From positions 1 through 25,918 of the IMG/VR virus record IMGVR_UViG_3300034105_003404: a stretch of 25,918 bases of DNA. The stretch is one strand, 5' to 3'. Position numbers and translations under genes: made by a program. Origin of the DNA: a virus. Positions 4,400 to 25,918 of this stretch are shown here, in pieces. The notes under the pieces were generated by a model. That model was not told the origin of the DNA, did not search any database, and saw only the letters and a program-made list of their open reading frames with translations. Position 1 is the first letter of the stretch. Each line of letters opens with the position of its first letter.

Positions 4400-4419
4400 G
4401 TTGATGCCTGCTATATATT
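4391..4419 (+). promoter_or_regulatory. Strong sigma70-type promoter, leaderless output
   Basis: TTGAAA (4391-4396), a 17-bp spacer and TATATT (4414-4419) form a near-consensus promoter. The ATG of the next gene follows 6 nt after the -10, so transcription should start at the A of ATG. Confidence 0.75.
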
Positions 4420-8622: not shown

Positions 8623-9083
8623 GCAATGCAGACATTCCATCAAAGAAATTCAACTTTTCAAATGATTTGGCTTACGGGCATATGGGTGAGTCTGTAATTA
8701 AGGACTTTCTTGAATCTCTTGAGCAAGGCGACTTTGAAGTCAAGACAGACAGGTTTAGGAATGGCAACATGGCAGTTGAGCTATACCAGAACCCACGAAG
8801 GCAGCTGGACCAAGACCAGAATCAGGTTTGGGTTCCAAGCGGACTGAATATCACAACAGCGAAATGGTGGGTCTATCAGTTCACTCTGGGCGAATCGTTT
8901 ATTGTCGTCTCGGTTGAGCGTCTTCGCAGGTTTATCAATATGAACAGCCATGACTTCAATGAAAACACATTTACTCCATTTGCACCCAAAAGCGATAATC
9001 CGGCTATGGGCTTCATACTGAAACCACATCACATAATCGAAATGATGATTAGCCCAAAGTACGACGAGTTGCCGGGGGGATGA
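8619..9083 (+). CDS. Putative PD-(D/E)xK-type nuclease-fold protein
   Basis: In this 154-residue protein, Glu24 (GES) precedes GDFEVKTDRFRNGNMAVE, where Asp38, Glu40 and Lys42 fit the D...ExK metal site of the PD-(D/E)xK nuclease superfamily, as in phage resolvases and recombination nucleases. The rest (WWVYQFTLGESFIVVSVERL) gives the core strands and helix. The substrate is unknown and the assignment rests on the motif alone. It starts in an ATGA overlap with the HicA-like gene. Confidence 0.5.
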   Translation: MSNADIPSKKFNFSNDLAYGHMGESVIKDFLESLEQGDFEVKTDRFRNGNMAVELYQNPRRQLDQDQNQVWVPSGLNITTAKWWVYQFTLGESFIVVSVERLRRFINMNSHDFNENTFTPFAPKSDNPAMGFILKPHHIIEMMISPKYDELPGG

Positions 9084-9084
9084 C

Positions 9085-9513
9085 ATGTCAGTGGTTGATA
9101 CCAAGCAATACGACAATCATGTTTGCGACGAATGCCATCAACCAATCCTGCTGTTTATGCCAGAGAACTACATAGAAGAGGGATACAAGCAAATCATTGG
9201 TGGAATGTGCTTTGATGCCGGCGGAGCCTATTCGGAGTTCAATGACACATCTCAGTCGTGGTTGGTGTCCACATGGGTTGACGGGTACATATCCCTGTGT
9301 CATGACTGCACTGCTCGTTTGTGGTCAGTGCTACCTAGGGCCATGACCAAGTTTGGAAAGCCGCTACATTTTTCGACTGACCCAGAGAACGCAATGCCTT
9401 GTTGTAAATGGGGGTGGACTTGGCGTATGGTTGATGGAGTTAGGAAGCTGTTTTGCGCAGGACAAGATGGTCTTGAATGGGAACAAGTAGAAGATTCAGG
9501 AAGCCACGAATGA
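9085..9513 (+). CDS. Cysteine-rich hypothetical protein
   Basis: The 142-residue product has CDECH at 14-18, CHDC at 72-75, CC near 106 and FCAG near 123, so one or two zinc sites are likely. The Trp-rich middle and end give a compact fold. No family is recognisable. It starts 2 nt after the preceding stop. At its own stop an ATGA opens an 8-codon frame (9510-9536) that may only carry ribosomes on to the next gene. Confidence 0.65.
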   Translation: MSVVDTKQYDNHVCDECHQPILLFMPENYIEEGYKQIIGGMCFDAGGAYSEFNDTSQSWLVSTWVDGYISLCHDCTARLWSVLPRAMTKFGKPLHFSTDPENAMPCCKWGWTWRMVDGVRKLFCAGQDGLEWEQVEDSGSHE

Positions 9514-9540
9514 GCATCATAAGCAATCAAGAATAGGACT

Positions 9541-9750
9541 ATGGGTACTCGCAGTACTAAGATTTCAAAATGCAACAAGGGACGATTGGATACTATGCCT
9601 GAGAACATTGCGACGAAGACATTCACAATCGAAGTAAACAGGTTTAATAGCGACATCCTCACATCAATCTATTCAACAGAAGAGCTAATATCCATGTTGT
9701 TGCAAAAGGGCGGAATGATGAGTGTCTCGGTGGTTAAGGAAAATGAATAA
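9541..9750 (+). CDS. Small hypothetical protein, 69 aa
   Basis: The product has a basic N terminus and a C-terminal half with strand-helix-strand (TFTIEVNRFNSDILTSIYSTEELISMLLQKGGMMSVSVV, given here only as a fold hint). AGGA lies close before the ATG at 9541; an in-frame ATG at 9595 with GGA upstream is the alternative and would give 51 residues. It overlaps the dioxygenase start by 8 nt. Confidence 0.55.
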   Translation: MGTRSTKISKCNKGRLDTMPENIATKTFTIEVNRFNSDILTSIYSTEELISMLLQKGGMMSVSVVKENE

Positions 9751-10993: not shown

Positions 10994-11647
10994 CTATATT
11001 TCCCCTCGGTCGATAGCGACTTCCTCGCCGCCCCCTCCGTTGGATACGGTTTCCGCAACATCGATTACCTCTCCATCTTCTATTTCTGATTCACCAAGTA
11101 TTGAATTAATTACGTCTGATGGAAGCACGCCGCTTCTTCCCATTATCTCCAAAAGCTTACGGGCTTCTGATTCTGGAGAGAACTGACTAATAGAACTTAC
11201 ATCTATTGCGCCGGAAAGGGTTGACCTAACATTGACCTGCGAATTAACATCCATCTGCACATTAACATTTGTCTGCTCCATACCGAGCAACTTTGAACGC
11301 CTATCCATTATAGACAGAACTTGCTGGATGGCTTTTAAGTCTGGCTCTGCTGTCACCTCAGTGCCATCATCCATTTCCAACTTTCTATGCTGAGTCATGG
11401 GCCATATTGCCGACTGAAGAGAGTCAAGTCTTTCAAGCTCCATTCTCAAAAGCTCTGGATAAGCAAAGAGTGCTTCTGAGTTGAGCTTTTCAAGCTGTCT
11501 TCTAATCGCAGTTCCTACAGCTCTGCTTGACATACCAAACCTACGGGCTATCTCACCATGGGTTACACCGGCTTGTCTTAGCTTGAATATGCGCAAGTCC
11601 CTTTCAGCAAGGAACTCCCTAGTTAAACCGCCTTCGCCTTTTGACAC
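10994..11647 (-). CDS. Probable terminase small subunit (HTH protein)
   Basis: The 217-residue protein has an N-terminal helix-turn-helix (LRQAGVTHGEIARRFGMSS at about 23-41). The middle reads LLRMELERLDSLQSAIWP ... DLKAIQQVLSIMDRRSKLLGME, the pattern of phage small terminase subunits where a run like KAVxRVLxIxxRRxKLLGL is common. The last 50 residues are acidic and glycine-rich. TerS recognises the packaging site, but here no large subunit lies beside it; the neighbours are a primase-helicase and an RHH protein. A general HTH regulator is the alternative. Confidence 0.55.
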   Translation of the reverse strand: MSKGEGGLTREFLAERDLRIFKLRQAGVTHGEIARRFGMSSRAVGTAIRRQLEKLNSEALFAYPELLRMELERLDSLQSAIWPMTQHRKLEMDDGTEVTAEPDLKAIQQVLSIMDRRSKLLGMEQTNVNVQMDVNSQVNVRSTLSGAIDVSSISQFSPESEARKLLEIMGRSGVLPSDVINSILGESEIEDGEVIDVAETVSNGGGGEEVAIDRGEI

Positions 11648-19758: not shown

Positions 19759-20298
19759 CTACTCCAGGCTAAGTAAGAATGTTCCCGATTCCCACATGAT
19801 TCCAATTGCTGAGTAACCAATTACATCCATCACATTGTCCTTGATTGATTCGTTGTTGGGGTTTGTATTATTGCCAACAAGATTTTCAAGTCTCGCAATC
19901 TTGTCGTGAACCCTAACCATCAATCCAGCTCTACCAAATCGCTGAATGTTCTCGTGGCCATAATCATGTTGTTTTCTGCACAAAGTTTCGTGCACTTCAG
20001 GTGATGTCAAATTAAAACCAAGAGAGCGTGAGAGCATGCTGGCAAGCCTTCCAATCCCCCTCCATGCCTGTGAGGCATCTTTTGCTTCGTGATGAAACAT
20101 GTCATCTATAAACACGTCGTGTGAAACTCGGAGCATCTTGATAATGGGCATACTCGCATCTTCAAAAGATGCAATAATCTTCAAGATGCTGTCCCAGGCC
20201 AGGTCTTGTTCTTCTTCTGGCGGGAGTATCTTACTCAACGCAATTGCGGCGGCGGCATTCCATGTTTTTGGTGTTTCTTTATACATTTGCTCAGTCAT
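19759..20298 (-). CDS. DUF1599 / nucleotide-modification-associated protein
   Basis: Residues about 109-170 of this 179-residue protein (KQHDYGHENIQRFGRAG, VRVHDKIARLENL, then ESIKDNVMDVIGYSAIG) match DUF1599 (nucleotide modification associated domain 1). The family is found beside base-modification genes in phages and is related to all-alpha NTP pyrophosphatases such as MazG. The acidic and His residues in the helices fit that. It begins 8 nt inside the end of the DNA methyltransferase, supporting a joint role in DNA or nucleotide modification. Confidence 0.75.
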   Translation of the reverse strand: MTEQMYKETPKTWNAAAAIALSKILPPEEEQDLAWDSILKIIASFEDASMPIIKMLRVSHDVFIDDMFHHEAKDASQAWRGIGRLASMLSRSLGFNLTSPEVHETLCRKQHDYGHENIQRFGRAGLMVRVHDKIARLENLVGNNTNPNNESIKDNVMDVIGYSAIGIMWESGTFLLSLE

Positions 20299-21784
20299 TT
20301 AATAATCCTTTGAAGATTTTTCCAAGCCATTCGGCTACGGGTGCAGCCACTCCATTCCCGGTCTGCTTGTACCTAGCTGTATCGGGTTGTTCTTTGCCAT
20401 CCGCACGCCACCTAGTGTGGTCCACGGGCCAGCCCATCAAAATTTCACACTCTTTTGGTAATAAACGCCTAACTACCATGTTCTGCAACACTCCGGTTGA
20501 CTGTTTTGTCCCCGCCCTAATTGCATGATGAATGCCACCATCAACAAGCTTGTCATTGTATTCATCGTAAGCAATTGCGTCAATCACTAGATTTTCACCT
20601 CGGCTCGATGGTACGCCGCCGTCACCACCACTACGAAGTGTCATTGCAACCCCATCATTGAGCTCTTCCATTTGAGCAACCATTGGTGTGTTTAGTCCAC
20701 CCGTTCCCATGAATGCAGTCAATGTGTTGATGGTGTCACCCTGTAGTCGTACGCCATCTTGTCTGTGTGGGTGAAAGACTATTGGTGAGTTTTCATCTTC
20801 ATAGGCGACACTTGGTGACTGTTGCGTAGCTTTAAGTGTTGGTGAGTGGTCTGTAAAAACATTTGCATTTGAACCGAACTGTGTATCAAAAGAAAAAACT
20901 TGATTGTCTTCAACAATTAATTTATCTTCGGCAACATACTGAGTGCCAACACCCCTCCAGTCTCTAGCTTGCAGTGTCCCTATGACATCTTGATATGAAT
21001 CTGTTGTGGTTTCAATACTGTCAGTTAGTATGGTGCCTGGGCCTTTTGCATCACGGGCACGCAATGTTAGAGCGGTGTCTGTTTCTTGCCATTTAGCAAA
21101 ACCGCTATTCTCGTATGCTAGGACTCCCTGTTCGCTACTGCTTCCAATGCTTGACGAAGCTTTTCCGGAAGCTTTTTGTTTCTCCTGTCGGCCCTTCTGA
21201 GAATGCCTTCGCACGCCCTCTTGGACAGGTAATAGCGGGATGGGACTTCGCTCTGCGGCACCAATATCGTATGTAGCACACACGAAGATGCGGCGCCGTC
21301 GCTGGGCGACTCCGTAGTACTGAGCATCAAGGATTGCCCAGTCAAGCGCCACGCACCCTGATTTGGCCATTTCATCGAGGACGACCCCAAAGTCAGCACC
21401 CTTGTTGGAAGTAAGTGCTCCGGGAACGTTTTCCCAGATTGCGAGTCGTGGGTATTGTCCATTTGTTGCATCACGCATCTCCTTGATTATTCTCATTGCT
21501 TCATGGAACAAACCAGAGCGTGCACCATCAAGGCCTGCGCGTTTGCCGGCCACGGAGAGGTCCTGACACGGACTTCCAAAGTTAATGCAGTCAACTGGTT
21601 CTATCTCGTTGCCCTTTACATCCCTGACATCTAAGTACTTGGGGATGTCGGGCCAGTGCTTGCTGAGTATTCGCTGACATGCAGGGTCCCACTCAGCTTG
21701 CCATTTGCACTGCCATCCGGCAGCTTCGAATCCAAGGTCGAAGCCGCCGACGCCGGCAAATAGACTGCCGAAGGTAAGGCTCAG
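20291..21784 (-). CDS. DNA cytosine-5 methyltransferase with apparent CTG start
   Basis: The 497-residue enzyme has motif I (FAGVGGFDLG at 9-18), motif IV GSPCQ with catalytic Cys73, motif VI ENV at 118-120, motif VIII QRRRR, and motifs IX-X in RRLLPKECEILMGWP and QTGNGVAAP. The long middle contains several RxRDxxGxGT-like turns typical of phage enzymes. It methylates C5 of cytosine in a site that cannot be read from sequence. The first in-frame ATG/GTG/TTG after the upstream stop is at 21553, which would remove motifs I and IV. The only reasonable start is CTG at 21784, overlapping the SSB stop as CTGA, with GAGGAAG 8 nt upstream. Confidence 0.88.
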   Translation of the reverse strand: MSLTFGSLFAGVGGFDLGFEAAGWQCKWQAEWDPACQRILSKHWPDIPKYLDVRDVKGNEIEPVDCINFGSPCQDLSVAGKRAGLDGARSGLFHEAMRIIKEMRDATNGQYPRLAIWENVPGALTSNKGADFGVVLDEMAKSGCVALDWAILDAQYYGVAQRRRRIFVCATYDIGAAERSPIPLLPVQEGVRRHSQKGRQEKQKASGKASSSIGSSSEQGVLAYENSGFAKWQETDTALTLRARDAKGPGTILTDSIETTTDSYQDVIGTLQARDWRGVGTQYVAEDKLIVEDNQVFSFDTQFGSNANVFTDHSPTLKATQQSPSVAYEDENSPIVFHPHRQDGVRLQGDTINTLTAFMGTGGLNTPMVAQMEELNDGVAMTLRSGGDGGVPSSRGENLVIDAIAYDEYNDKLVDGGIHHAIRAGTKQSTGVLQNMVVRRLLPKECEILMGWPVDHTRWRADGKEQPDTARYKQTGNGVAAPVAEWLGKIFKGLLND

Positions 21785-22330: not shown

Positions 22331-22549
22331 ATGGCCACTAACCCTTTTGAAATAAGGCTTTCGTTAACCAATGCGATTGCTAACTCGTTGTTTGACATTG
22401 CTTTTGATGAGAGCATATCGGACAAAGAGCTTGCGCAGCAACTTGAAGATTACAAAGATGTTGCATCAATGCTTCTTGAAGACCTCGGGTGCGAGGTCAT
22501 TGAAATCAAAGACGGAAAGATGATTTGCTCCTTTAGTCCACAAAAATAA
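22331..22549 (+). CDS. Small acidic helical protein next to the array
   Basis: The 72-residue product (MATNPFEIRLSLTNAIANSL...) is helical with a short C-terminal hairpin (CEVIEIKDGKMICSFS). It is not recognised. There is no Shine-Dalgarno; TAGGCT ends 6 nt before the ATG, so it may be leaderless. Its stop lies 2 nt before the first CGGGACTA of the array, and transcription of this gene would read straight into it. Confidence 0.65.
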   Translation: MATNPFEIRLSLTNAIANSLFDIAFDESISDKELAQQLEDYKDVASMLLEDLGCEVIEIKDGKMICSFSPQK

Positions 22550-22551
22550 CA

Positions 22552-22770
22552 CGGGACTAGTAAGTGACAGGAATAAATTGAAGCGCAGAAGGAGCGAAGC
22601 GACTGGTATTCCAAGGAAATACGGAAGGCCCCATTTACTCCATTTACGAATGGCTGTAGGCCGAAGGCCGTAAGCCTGAAGAGCGAGCAGCGTTAAATGG
22701 ATAAATGGAGGGAGTATTACTTTGGAATGCGAGCAAGCAATTTTGCCGTAGATTTTTATTCAAATATATT
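22552..22770 (+). ncRNA. Array unit 1, family A
   Basis: Core: CGACTGGT (22600-22607), helix P2 GTATTCCAA (22606-22614) with TTGGAATGC (22722-22730), ACGGAAG, helix P3 CCATTTA...CATTTACG (22631-22648) with 22691-22708, then GGGAGTA. A GGCC-GAA-GGCC hairpin caps P3. GAATAA/TTATTC and ATTG/CAAT close the unit. Confidence 0.65.
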
Positions 22771-22932
22771 CGGGACTAATAAACAGACTTAGCATTTGCG
22801 TGCAAGGTCGCGTGCTGCGTAGTTGTTTATGTCGTTGTGCACGGCTCAGCGTGCAAGCGAAGCGTCATAAGACATAACGACGAAGCATCTCGCGGACTGC
22901 ATGCAATGCGATTGTTGTGATGAGACCCAACA
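22771..22932 (+). ncRNA. Array unit 2
   Basis: Extended rod: CATTTGCGTGC pairs with GCATGCAATG (one bulge, one wobble), CGCG with CGCG, TTATGTC (22827-22833) with GACATAA (22871-22877), and TGCACG (22838-22843) with CGTGCA (22850-22855) around a 6-nt loop. It is distantly like family D (GCATT...GCGTGCTG). Confidence 0.55.
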
Positions 22933-23080
22933 CGGGACTAGTTAGTTCATAAACATACAAAGCGAGTTGTTGCTTTTAGGAGCGGAGCCTTAGCGAAGGT
23001 TTCCAGAGCGTAGCCTGGAATCTGAGCGGAGGCTAAGCGATGAAAAGAAACACGAGTGGGAACTGTGATTAGGCTTTCCT
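22933..23080 (+). ncRNA. Array unit 3
   Basis: CTTAGC (22989-22994) pairs with GCTAAG (23032-23037) and encloses TTCCAG (23001-23006) with CTGGAA (23015-23020). No relative was found in the window. Confidence 0.5.
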
Positions 23081-23249
23081 CGGGACTAAATACCTACCGG
23101 GAACAGACAGCGAAGTTACTTTCTTTTCGAGCGGTGCGAGAGCGAGAAGGTTCCAGAAGCGGAGTTATTTTGCGATTAAAGACTTTATGGGAACAAGCGA
23201 AGATGCGAGCGTTGAAGGACGAGAAGCTTGAATGTAAATAGTAAAACTT
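23081..23249 (+). ncRNA. Array unit 4
   Basis: CTTTTCG (23123-23129) pairs with CGAGAAG (23143-23149) with one wobble; GTTCC later pairs with GGAAC. Its start (AATACCTACC) resembles that of unit 11. Confidence 0.5.
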
Positions 23250-23407
23250 CGGGACTAGGGACTATTCAAGCGGTGAGTCGTTTGATGCGAGCAGTGAAGC
23301 GCAGTGTACTTAAAGGATTTAAGAGCGGGATAACGAGCAGTCTGGAATTTCGAGCGTTCGCTGAGCGAGGAAAGAAGTACGAGCAAAAGTTGTGCTGTGA
23401 GCCTACT
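23250..23407 (+). ncRNA. Array unit 5
   Basis: The boundary word is doubled (CGGGACTAGGGACTA). A 6-bp hairpin CTTAAA-GGA-TTTAAG lies at 23309-23323. No relative was found in the window. Confidence 0.45.
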
Positions 23408-23581
23408 CGGGACTATGAAGTATGTTTTACAGTCCATGTTCAACAAACAAGCTTTATGAAGCGTCCGGAGCTGCTGAAGACTGGTGGTAGCTCTTTTGCG
23501 GACACCGTCGAGGCATCTCCAGGTAAGCGAGTATGCGATAACTTTTATTCGATTCATAGATAGTTTTTATTCAATACGACT
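23408..23581 (+). ncRNA. Array unit 6
   Basis: GTCCG-GAGCT (23463-23472) pairs with AGCTC (23489-23493) and CGGAC (23499-23503), a two-step hairpin. It ends in TTTTATTCAA and 7 nt before the next boundary, like units 1 and 17. Confidence 0.5.
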
Positions 23582-23786
23582 CGGGACTTACATATAAAAG
23601 GATTGAAGCGTGAACGAGAAGGAGCGCAGCGACTGGTAATTTCGAGAAAAACGGAAGAGACTCTTTTCTCGTTTTCTGGGTGGCTGCAAGCCCCCCAAGC
23701 GATAGCGGGAAAAGGAAAAAGAGAGGGAGTATTTCGAGGAACTACGAGAGAGCGATTCATCCGGGGACTTTTCAACAAAACCATTA
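23582..23786 (+). ncRNA. Array unit 7, family A
   Basis: It shares GAAGGAGCGCAGCGACTGGT and ACGGAAG...GGGAGTA with unit 1, but the P3 arms are different sequence, CTCTTTTCTCGTTTTC (23661-23676) against 23710-23725, and still pair. A GGGGACTT half-site at 23763-23770 lies near its end. Confidence 0.65.
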
Positions 23787-24007
23787 CGGGACTAATAACC
23801 ACAGGGTTAGGCGTGTGCCTGTTTTGAAAGGGAGAGAATCGACTGGTGGTTTTTAAAGTTTACGGAAGAGGCTCTTTTTTGTCTTTTTTGAGTGAGGTAC
23901 GAGCAAAAGCGACGCTTTTTGGAGCGGTAAAAAGAAAAAAAGAGAGGGAGTAAAATTTAATAAACCATGAAAAACGGCACTGCCAGGAGTTGTTAGATAA
24001 ATCAACA
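23787..24007 (+). ncRNA. Array unit 8, family A with a family C-like 3' end
   Basis: It has the CGACTGGT, ACGGAAG and GGGAGTA blocks of family A; P3 is CTCTTTTTTGTCTTTTTT (23872-23889) with 23929-23946, P2 is GGTTT/AAACC. Its last 35 nt (TGCCAGGAGTTGTTAGATAA) match the end of unit 11, so it looks mosaic. Confidence 0.65.
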
Positions 24008-24150
24008 CGGGACTAACTTCTATAAGCCAACAAGCATTGCGTCTTTCTGTTCGATGTGAATGAGCGTGCTGGTAACGAGGTACGAAGTTACGCAAAGCGA
24101 AAGAACAACGAAAAAGAAAACGCATGCGGTAGCTTTTATTTGATACGACT
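24008..24150 (+). ncRNA. Array unit 9, family D
   Basis: It shares CAAGCATTGC, GAGCGTGCTG and CACGAA/TACGAA-type loop words with unit 13. Inner stem GTAAC (24072-24076) with GTTAC (24087-24091), 10-nt loop; outer stem GCATTGCGTCTTTC with GAAAACGCATGC. Confidence 0.6.
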
Positions 24151-24401
24151 CGGGACTTATGTGTACTAGGACTATTTGAAGAGTCGCAATAGCGACGAAG
24201 TGTTATTTCTTGGAACGATACGGAGCGAAGAAGGTATGCGTAGGGAAATGTGAAGCGACGGAGTGCGACAGCGCTTCGGCGCTAGCATAAGCGAAGTGAC
24301 CTTCTTTTAGCGAGGTATTGTGTAAAGAAATACACGAGGTGCGTTGTGGCGAAGCAAATGTCCGGGATGTCGCAATCAAAGATAAACATCTACCAAAGTC
24401 T
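24151..24401 (+). ncRNA. Array unit 10, family B
   Basis: AAGAAGG-TATGC (24228-24239) pairs with GCATA (24285-24289) and CCTTCTT (24300-24306). Inside is AGCGC-TTCG-GCGCT (24270-24283), a UUCG tetraloop hairpin. Also GTCGC-AATA-GCGAC and GTGTA/TACAC hairpins, and a 3' AGAT-AAAC-ATCT hairpin. Confidence 0.65.
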
Positions 24402-24556
24402 CGGGACTAAGTACCTAGGTTGTCGGGCTGCCGACACCTGATGAGGAAGCGTAATTTTCATGGCCCCTGGTGGCGGACACGGAATCATGTAATGATTTCG
24501 AGGTCTTCCGCCCCATGTTAAATTTGCTGGTGCCAAAGCTGTTAGATAAGTCTGCA
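24402..24556 (+). ncRNA. Array unit 11, family C
   Basis: GGCGGA (24472-24477) pairs with TCCGCC (24507-24512), enclosing GGAATCAT (24481-24488) and ATGATTTC (24492-24499) around GTA. It is followed by GCTGGTGCCAAAG and TGTTAG, all shared with unit 16. Confidence 0.65.
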
Positions 24557-24691
24557 CGGGACTAATAACCAAAAACAGTGAGCATTCCGAACGAAGCGAC
24601 GTAGCCGCCGAGGCATCCCGTAGCTCGCGTAGGGAGCCTGGCGTCTACCGAGCAAGCGAGGAGGCGAGGAAAAGTCTCATGTTTGCCTACA
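24557..24691 (+). ncRNA. Array unit 12
   Basis: The shortest unit. AGGCATCCC (24611-24619) pairs with GGGAGCCT (24632-24639), 8 bp with one bulged A and a 12-nt loop. No close relative was found in the window. Confidence 0.5.
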
Positions 24692-24831
24692 CGGGACTTA
24701 TCTTTACAAACGAGCAAGCATTGCATTTTCGTTCGACTCGGAGCGAGCGTGCTGTGACAAGGCACGAAGTCACGCAAAGCGAGCGTAGGTCGATAAGAAA
24801 ATGTATGCGGTGAGTGAGTAGTAAATGAAAT
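24692..24831 (+). ncRNA. Array unit 13, family D
   Basis: Related to unit 9. Inner stem GTGAC (24754-24758) with GTCAC (24769-24773) replaces an A-T pair of unit 9 by G-C; outer stem GCATTGCATTTTC with GAAAATGTATGC also changes on both sides. Confidence 0.6.
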
Positions 24832-25079
24832 CGGGACTTATGTGTAACAGGACTGTTCGACGAAATGGTTAGCGACGAAGTGTTATTTTTTGGAACAAAA
24901 AGAAGCGAGGAAGGTATGCGTAGGGTAATGCGAAGCAACGAAGTGCGACAGCAATTCGGCGCTAGCATAAGCGAAGCGACCTTTTGAGCGCACTTATTGT
25001 GCAGAAAAATACACGAGAAGCGGTCCATGAGGCGAATATCCGGGATACCGAATTCATAGATAAATATCTATTCAAGTCT
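24832..25079 (+). ncRNA. Array unit 14, family B
   Basis: Related to unit 10 over most of its length. AAGG-TATGC (24911-24919) pairs with GCATA (24965-24969) and CCTT (24980-24983). The 3' hairpin AGAT-AAAT-ATCT precedes the boundary. The UUCG hairpin of unit 10 is weaker here. Confidence 0.6.
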
Positions 25080-25307
25080 CGGGACTAGATAATGGTTTGA
25101 TGGTTGAAAAACAATCACGCAAAATCAACTTAGACAGATAAGAGAATCTAGGTGATTCTGGCGAAGCGCATGCGTAGACATGAATCAACGGTTGCCGGGT
25201 TGAAAAGCGTAGGGTTGTTCGAGCCGAGCAGCGGTGAGAACACACGAGCGTTCAACTCGGCAAAGATTTGCTTATGTGGATAAGTTGGAACTCTATTCAA
25301 ATATCCT
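25080..25307 (+). ncRNA. Array unit 15
   Basis: AGAATC (25143-25148) pairs with GATTCT (25154-25159), and GCCGAG (25223-25228) with CTCGGC (25256-25261). It lies between the second copies of families B and C, as if inserted there. Confidence 0.5.
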
Positions 25308-25462
25308 CGGGACTTGATACCTTGAGATGTCAGGTTGTCGCGCCGAGATGCTAGGCGTATTTTTATGACCCCCCATGGTGCGGACACAAAATCATGTAAT
25401 GATTTTGAGGTTGTCCGCCGTCATATAAATCGCTGGTGCCAAAGTTGTTAGGGGGGTTAGTA
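25308..25462 (+). ncRNA. Array unit 16, family C
   Basis: Same fold as unit 11: GCGGACA (25380-25386) with TGTCCGC (25412-25418), enclosing AAAATCAT and ATGATTTT around GTA. The two outer inner-stem pairs are A-T where unit 11 has G-C and G-T. Confidence 0.65.
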
Positions 25463-25694
25463 CGGGACTTGATAGCGAAGATTTTGCAGCACGGCGGGCG
25501 TAGCGTGACTTGAGTGCGAGCATCGCTGTAGCGGACCGGGTAAATCGACTGAAGCTAGTGAGTGAATTTTGTGTATACAAAATGATACGAGCGTTGCTGA
25601 GGGAGATTTCTCGGGTAGCGGAAGTGGGCGAGTGGCTCAGTCAAAGCGTAGAGCGTTTGTGCTGCAAATCTGGTAAGTTTTATTCAACTTGCTA
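25463..25694 (+). ncRNA. Array unit 17
   Basis: A 7-bp hairpin ATTTTGT-GTAT-ACAAAAT lies at 25566-25583. The unit ends GTTTTATTCAA and 7 nt before the next boundary. No relative was found in the window. Confidence 0.45.
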
Positions 25695-25853
25695 CGGGGC
25701 TAAATAACAAATTCAGGCGTTCGTTTCTTTCTGGGAACCAGAATAAGTGAGCAACGGTCAAGCCTCTTGACGAAGCGAAGTGGCTCGACAATTAATTGTT
25801 GCGGCGATTGCTAAAGGCATTAGCGATGACTAATCAATCACATGTTGGATAAT
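25695..25853 (+). ncRNA. Array unit 18, variant boundary
   Basis: It starts with CGGGGCTA instead of CGGGACTA. Hairpins TTCTGG-GAA-CCAGAA (25729-25743) and GCTAA-AGGCA-TTAGC (25810-25824). Confidence 0.5.
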
Positions 25854-25918
25854 CGGGACTAGAGACTTTATACCGGGAAGCGCTAAGGTCTTTAGTGATT
25901 CGCAAGCAATGATTAATT
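25854..25918 (+). ncRNA. Array unit 19, cut by the window end
   Basis: It begins with CGGGACTA; only 65 bp are visible, too little to assign a family. Confidence 0.4.

Follow-up and report, generated by a model that had tools for sequence, protein, structure and literature searches.

A viral DNA of 25,918 bp, the full length of an IMG/VR record (IMGVR_UViG_3300034105_003404, referred to here as the window), ends in an array of hairpin-rich, non-coding units bounded by copies of the heptamer CGGGACT, the word. In this array and its relatives the plus-strand structure of the units is conserved, the units are under purifying selection, the word is located at their borders, and mostly whole units are gained or lost. 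The array evolves as a set of folded elements that are conserved and shuffled as whole pieces. With moderate confidence, we propose that CGGGACU divides one transcript into mRNAs and a large number of small structured RNAs, most likely by cleavage. The array matches no catalogued RNA family. To our knowledge, no described phage locus has a comparable set of two to three dozen distinct structured RNAs within a single punctuated operon.

The window contains 18 exact copies of CGGGACT, all on the plus strand and all inside positions 22552-25860. In 100 dinucleotide shuffles of the window, the mean was 1.50 and the maximum 7, and 18 copies were never reached. A sole variant copy, CGGGGCT, is present at 25695 on the same strand. 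Word-to-word distances amount to 219, 162, 148, 169, 158, 174, 205, 221, 143, 251, 155, 135, 140, 248, 228, 155, 232 and 159 nucleotides (nt). Both the number of words and their spacing agree with a first-pass annotation of this DNA, which had described 18 exact copies and one variant in a single orientation, delimiting units of 135-251 bp. The window stops inside the array. In the near-identical record G006 (L062), nine more words follow beyond the window end, up to a gene designated ORF-B; the array of G006 comprises 28 exact words and one variant, and its last word sits in a terminal element. Alignment of 72 non-redundant word contexts, in which the seven core letters were fixed or almost fixed by the search pattern, yielded the flank consensus [T/A]CGGGACT A N N N A[G/C][T/C], corresponding to [U/A]CGGGACU N4 A[G/C][U/C] in RNA. 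With the word numbered from 0 at its first base, position -1 is T in 44 or A in 22 contexts, position 11 is A in 61, and position 13 is T in 44 or C in 25.

Using the neighbouring single-strand binding protein (SSB) as query, 56 loci were collected. G007 and G006 are 99.99% identical to the window over more than 25,890 and more than 20,809 bases, respectively. Six non-identical arrays were found at the same locus, five of them in one group (G006, G003, G004, G001 and G005) and one far diverged (G002). DNA identity to the window is 94% for G003 and 81-83% for G004, G001 and G005; G002 gave no blastn match to the window, and its SSB is 72% identical. All six arrays share one plan, consisting of a gene of 72-75 amino acids (ORF-A), a word 0-2 nt past its stop codon, 18-29 units, a gene with a CPxC motif (ORF-B) and the terminal element. 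Excluding the ORF-B unit and the last word, and including variant words in G002, the unit counts are 27 (G006), 26 (G003), 22 (G004), 18 (G001), 23 (G005) and 29 (G002), with unit lengths of 91-329 nt. At loci with an SSB identity of 71% or less, some of which hold little sequence on that side and two of which were read in part, no cluster of more than three words was detected.

Clustering of the units from seven records by blast resulted in 22 families present in several genomes and some smaller ones. Identity of single-copy units to those of G006 was 0.959 in G003 (14 units), 0.793 in G004 (14 units), 0.788 in G001 (11 units) and 0.819 in G005 (14 units), compared to 0.855, 0.609, 0.563 and 0.499 at fourfold-degenerate sites from up to six genes. 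Since the units are better conserved than these sites, they are under strong constraint. In family 1 (10 sequences), 26 of 73 base pairs display changes on both sides, and 97.8% of the cells are paired as opposed to 87.6% in shuffles and at most 47.9% with a slid structure. The covariation score of this family was 0.353 versus 0.165 (standard deviation 0.012), and none of 500 shuffles scored as high. Changes on both sides were also observed in 19 of the 76 consensus pairs of family 3 (7 sequences) and in 4 of 25 pairs of family 0 (8 sequences). In 21 of 22 families, the plus strand has a lower consensus energy than the minus strand, the exception being the ORF-B unit. When only Watson-Crick pairs were used to build structures for 20 families, the departures from them were 99 G-U and 38 A-C on the plus strand, and 44 G-U and 87 A-C on the minus strand. 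Mean folding z-scores were -2.68 on the plus and -1.82 on the minus strand of the 28 units of G006 (18 of them below -2), and -3.56 and -3.28 for the 29 units of G002 (21 below -2). Many units fold mainly as a long imperfect hairpin or a pair of them, flanked by more open sequence; 13 of 20 consensus folds have one or two hairpin loops. The flanks of the word are likewise predicted to be more open than the array average. Conservation, compensatory pairs and the preference for G-U over A-C on the plus strand indicate that this strand works in folded form; in the simplest interpretation, it does so as RNA and not as single-stranded DNA.

These energies, pair changes and identities substantiate the earlier description of the units as structured. 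The first-pass annotation had also named an observation that would speak against its reading, namely words that are kept while the units lack structural conservation; on examination, the structure was found to be conserved. Its statement that the units carry no genes has to be amended, as the array is flanked by two small conserved genes in the same orientation. Coding units are ruled out by the compensatory pairs and the structured plus strand, except for the last unit, which holds ORF-B. A tRNA ancestry hinted at by some unit tails was likewise rejected, as neither ARAGORN nor Rfam found tRNA remnants. Fast turnover of units, and the fact that only one of 20 families (family 10; E 2.9e-7 and 0.0013) was significantly matched in G002, could suggest non-functional repetitive DNA maintained by recombination. 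Conservation above fourfold-degenerate sites, covariation and a word that hardly varies make this explanation very improbable.

Within the five-genome group the arrays differ by whole units; the other differences are short indels and, in a family 0 unit of G003, a deletion of about 21 nt. At the clearest junctions, the 5′ tail is common up to the word and the 3′ unit is likewise common from roughly the word onwards. Exact switches of this type were seen where family 10 is followed by family 0 or 11, family 4 by family 13 or 16, and family 6 by family 7 or 22. Variation is frequent in the ten bases adjoining the word. Families that are repeated (0 to 5) occur mostly out of tandem order, with two adjacent family 5 units in G005. 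The cross-genome comparison supports the earlier view of the word as a unit boundary; the units that it separates are gained or lost whole. An origin of the window array as tandem repeats was discarded, as Tandem Repeats Finder reported only 2-2.4 copies of 8-14 nt.

Turnover of this kind is what the main rival explanation would predict, in which CGGGACT is a DNA recombination junction for RNA-encoding cassettes and the boundaries mark assembly instead of processing. Whole-unit differences with exact switches at the word and the scattered order of repeated families fit such a junction, as does a depletion of CGGGAC from both strands of the remaining genome, described below, that resembles a site acted on in DNA. 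However, profile searches of eight records (seven fragments and the circularly complete G001; seven of the eight from one group) revealed no tyrosine recombinase (PF00589), although an integrase could be supplied by a host, and no serine recombinase or Y1 transposase. In G006, G003, G004, G001 and G002, AGTCCCG as a folded attC-like partner was absent from the structured units and was found in the ORF-B unit, in its terminal element or beyond. Moreover, recombination at 7-8 nt of shared sequence combined with selection would yield the same breakpoints, and the junction leaves the position of words 0-3 nt past stop codons unexplained. We therefore regard this explanation as rather unlikely. In the punctuated-transcript reading, whole RNAs can be added or removed without harm to their neighbours because recombination takes place between words, the sequence common to all boundaries. 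It is conceivable, though doubtful, that the heptamer borders serve as DNA swap site and transcript cut site at once and thereby form a phage RNA-cassette system, a modular set of exchangeable structured RNA effectors.

The position of the word relative to genes argues for punctuation of a transcript. ORF-A (22331-22549, plus strand, 72 amino acids), which had no match in Pfam, lies directly 5′ of the window array, and the first word begins 2 nt past its stop codon. Among 22 loci with ORF-A, the word is located 2 nt past the stop in 15 and 0 nt past it in two (G002 type), whereas the remaining five, all of a distantly related type (G009), have no word after the stop; the 17 word-bearing loci include several near-identical contigs and one contig that ends after a single word. 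At the other end the array closes with a word followed by ORF-B, which has about 72-79 amino acids (its start is uncertain); its versions in the G006 group and the G002 group share 33% identity. Only zinc-ribbon matches below threshold were obtained for ORF-B in Pfam.

A second gene context was provided by the distant relatives G009-G014, which were found in scans with longer spacings. The G009 contig L146 encodes a related helicase, SSB and ORF-A; ORF-A is also present in G010, G011 and G013, and no array follows it there. In G009-type phages, words occur elsewhere, in small intergenic groups of one or two units. L146 has words at 9082, 9270 and 9473 behind a 148-amino-acid gene, with a word 3 nt past the stop codon, and words at 4402 and 4611 before a gene that reads like WhiB; its other words are single. 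The word contexts of these relatives resemble the extended motif, and, by reading of the sequence, L146 has the same unit in two separate positions. Stretches that start with a word fold in L146 (z -1.5, -4.8, -3.7 and -2.1). In contrast, the sequences that follow the final words of the two groups do not (z -0.8 and +1.1), so that n units are accompanied by n+1 words there.

The punctuated operon is favoured because the word directly follows stop codons in two gene contexts, because words border plus-strand structures with nothing structured past the last word in L146, and because the array is devoid of plus-strand terminators: between 22200 and 25918 of the window, intrinsic-terminator-like sites numbered none on the plus and one on the minus strand, compared to 3.7 on both strands in shuffles. 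ORF-A, the 18-29 structured RNAs and ORF-B would form one operon, with a plus-strand transcript starting 5′ of ORF-A. Most likely, an endonuclease would cut at or beside CGGGACU and thus free the ORF-A mRNA, the separate RNAs and the ORF-B mRNA. We infer that the resulting discrete RNAs act in trans and are made during infection. If instead each word were part of a promoter, the units would be separately initiated RNAs. The T or A that precedes the word in 66 of 72 contexts and the conservation of some downstream positions are compatible with a promoter, but no -10/-35 pattern stood out 5′ of the words in the 72 non-redundant contexts, and sigma-70-like sites in the array (4) were not above shuffles (5.0). 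Furthermore, the last word of the two small L146 arrays precedes sequence without predicted structure. Separate initiation is thus highly unlikely. One tail resembles the T7 promoter and the other tails do not, and a T7-like promoter was rejected. Pairing of the word with AGUCCCG of 16S rRNA was set aside on inspection since the conserved downstream positions do not fit.

Outside the arrays, CGGGAC is rare. In the 160,900 bp of G001 outside the array region it occurs twice compared to 11.2 expected from sub-words, and ranks 25th by z among the most avoided of 2,080 hexamer pairs. It is missing outside the arrays of G002 (6.2 expected) and G007 (5.8 expected); these counts are partly dependent, as G007 belongs to the species of the window and G001 is a relative. 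Shuffling of synonymous codons in G001 gave 2 versus 13.9 on the sense and 0 versus 4.8 on the antisense strand. Among comparison words, CAGGACT was also low (8 versus 14.3), while TCAGGGC, GCCCTGA and CGGAACT were not. G009, G010, G011, G012 and G015 displayed no depletion. Absence of the full heptamer outside the G001 array was discarded as a signal, given that 18 of 420 word permutations are absent as well and that the hexamer-based expectation is 0.44. As a separate observation, many of the most avoided hexamers outside the G001 array follow the scheme TANNNT, which is that of promoter -10 boxes.

Depletion on both strands favours a motif that is recognised either in DNA or in RNA transcribed from both strands. 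Under another explanation the word would be a protein-binding site in DNA or nascent RNA, for example for nut-like antitermination that keeps the polymerase going over 3-6 kb of structured RNA, or as an operator or titration array. The terminal element 3′ of ORF-B, which consists of AGYCCCG, about 50 nt, CGGGACT, about 40 nt and TGACGGTGGCGGATGA, would then contain a paired site in the form of the inverted pair AGYCCCG/CGGGACY. Elements of this type were found 38 times. In 28 of them, a word or variant lies no more than 190 nt upstream; 25 of these 28 have AGYCCCG before the word and 22 carry CGGGACY. A further point for a binding site is a second motif, RYTKTBAT, which is enriched 5′ of words (13 of 56 tails versus 8 of 540 interior windows) and in a broader form mostly begins at -19 relative to the word. 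A bare operator array, however, needs no conserved structures between its sites, the words sit at unit ends, and the five distant relatives show no depletion of CGGGAC, all of which leaves us sceptical of this explanation. Covariation of AGYCCCG and CGGGACT as a helix of the terminal element was considered and rejected, as AGCCCCG together with CGGGACT, the most frequent pairing (11 of 28), contains a C-A mismatch.

Several results speak against the punctuated operon. The both-strand depletion of CGGGAC, the main one against RNA cleavage alone, is not explained by cleavage of sense transcripts. Profiles for the RNase III, PemK/MazF and RNase E/G (PF10150) families had no match in the eight records, and the word itself is not predicted to be more open than the array average. 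At the family 9 tail, the last 35 nt or so differ according to the neighbour, which makes this junction inexact. In family 1, further pair types were no more numerous than in shuffles, 475 of 500 of which had a count as high, and families 7, 8 and 15 contain no or one compensatory pair. Compensatory pairs are hardly strand-specific (153 of 1139 on the plus and 130 of 1012 on the minus strand), and the consensus structures were derived from the same alignments that were used for these counts. The earlier annotation had left the choice between an RNA processing signal and a DNA junction. The both-strand depletion points to DNA, whereas words behind stop codons and the unfolded ends in L146 point to RNA. 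As a candidate processing enzyme, a window match to the PHROGs family phrog_645, labelled RNase E, was rejected. The matching gene (10994-11647) codes for a helix-turn-helix protein in which PF10150 finds nothing and whose best Pfam match, just below the cut-off, is sigma-70 region 4; the RNase E label looks wrong.

The array was compared with known systems. Phage tRNA arrays likewise string together many small structured RNAs on one strand of a phage genome, and their tRNAs are cut out of longer transcripts. In contrast, the units described here contain no tRNA and share a short word instead of a fold. No tRNAs were found by ARAGORN in the arrays scanned; G001, G004 and G005 have tRNAs elsewhere. 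In Rfam 15, the single match of the window array had an E value of 3.4 and 17.1 bits compared to a gathering score of 100, and eight sources with arrays or relatives yielded tRNAs only. Integron cassette arrays resemble the array in their single orientation, a common 7-nt word per junction and the gain and loss of whole units, but here an integrase was not found and the units lack genes and attC-like partner sites. CRISPR arrays, too, are tandem and punctuated with differing units. Their hallmark is a near-identical repeat of about 20-50 nt that recurs at regular intervals, while the array has a 7-nt word with a few weaker positions, irregular distances (135-251 in the window) and long self-complementary units, in agreement with the earlier judgement that the repeat is too short for CRISPR. 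A ToxI-like type III toxin-antitoxin RNA would consist of short tandem repeats of one antitoxin RNA, which the window array does not. A CsrB-like sponge is characterised by the protein CsrA and by GGA in the loops of hairpins; CGGGACU contains GGA, but at spacings of 135-251 nt in the window.

TIGR arrays of phages and parasitic bacteria operate without Cas proteins, and their RNAs are processed from a long precursor; in the stem-loop type, stem-loop units are processed at linkers (PMC12045711). As described there, tigRNAs measure 36 nt, have edge and loop repeats and depend on the Nop-domain protein Tas. The units here are about 90-330 nt long, and the Nop domain (PF01798) was found in none of the eight records. 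TROVE (PF05731), the mark of a Ro60/Y RNA system, was equally absent from all eight. GOLLD, ROOL and OLE are large structured RNAs, the former two from phages and prophages and often near tRNA islands, as stated in PMC12286853. Each of them is a single large RNA, and here no non-tRNA Rfam family reached its gathering score. In open-access PMC, which covers neither preprints nor most subscription papers, no paper describing such an array was found.

If the word is a cleavage site, a sequence-specific RNA-processing activity must be present in infected cells; if it is a junction, RNA genes are exchanged as cassettes. Should both hold, phages would exchange RNA effectors to counter varying hosts, in the way that integrons exchange genes. 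The array RNAs are candidates for RNA-based host takeover or counter-defence; the first-pass annotation had named decoys or inhibitors of host defence as possible roles.

All units of the window are encoded on the plus strand, and each begins at its word. Four families are present twice: family 2 as unit 1 (22552-22770, word at 22552-22558) and unit 7 (23582-23786), family 0 as unit 9 (24008-24150) and unit 13 (24692-24831), family 3 as unit 10 (24151-24401) and unit 14 (24832-25079), and family 4 as unit 11 (24402-24556) and unit 16 (25308-25462). Units 2 (family 6, 22771-22932), 3 (family 22, 22933-23080), 4 (family 7, 23081-23249), 5 (family 8, 23250-23407) and 6 (family 9, 23408-23581) lie between the two family 2 copies; unit 3 is present in G006 and absent from G003, G004, G001 and G005. 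They are complemented by unit 8 (23787-24007) of family 10, the family matched in G002, unit 12 (family 11, 24557-24691), unit 15 (family 12, 25080-25307), unit 17 (family 13, 25463-25694), unit 18 (family 14, 25695-25853), which starts with the variant word, and unit 19 (family 15, 25854-25918), which is cut by the window end.

G001 comprises 173,962 bp with an exact terminal repeat of 123 bp and is therefore taken as circularly complete. When 97 of its 156 ORFs were scanned against Pfam and PHROGs, a major capsid protein, WhiB-like regulators and a tape-measure protein were among the matches listed, the protein tables giving the 25 commonest families of 29, 57 and 38 in three of four cases. 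The host is presumably an actinobacterium and the habitat presumably freshwater. INPHARED phages gave no DNA match to the array at an E value of 0.01; the array phage is known from metagenomes only. Scans for further arrays returned 50, 33 and 27 stretches. Beyond this clade and the G009-like group, these were rejected as repeats of similar sequence, as spacings divisible by three or as words that lack the extended motif, as judged on spacing and context rather than gene calling. A genome-collection scan with the terminal-element pattern, which did not extend to the array itself, produced seven matches, approximately the number estimated by chance. In the window, a C5-cytosine DNA methylase gene (20291-21553) adjoins the SSB gene and the array, and a tRNA-Met (CAT) is located far away at 1382-1455 on the minus strand.

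A dispersed element of the form AGYCCCG ... ACGGYGGYGGATGA, the one with an intervening word or variant in 28 of 38 copies as counted above, was noted in G001-G006, G009-G012 and G015 (e.g. L113, L135 and L199), mostly in intergenic regions and, in G009-G012 and G015, on the minus strand. By reading, it often comes after a gene end or intrinsic terminator and before the promoter that follows, and it is possibly regulatory. At all five G009-type loci (L234, L143, L235, L236 and L237), AGTCCCG, the complement of the word, immediately follows the ORF-A stop codon, where it apparently also belongs to the coding sequence of a convergent helicase gene. In L072, the minus strand at about 9300-9690, 3′ of the ORF-A homologue, has, by reading, the look of a tmRNA gene, and a tRNA-like sequence follows at some distance.

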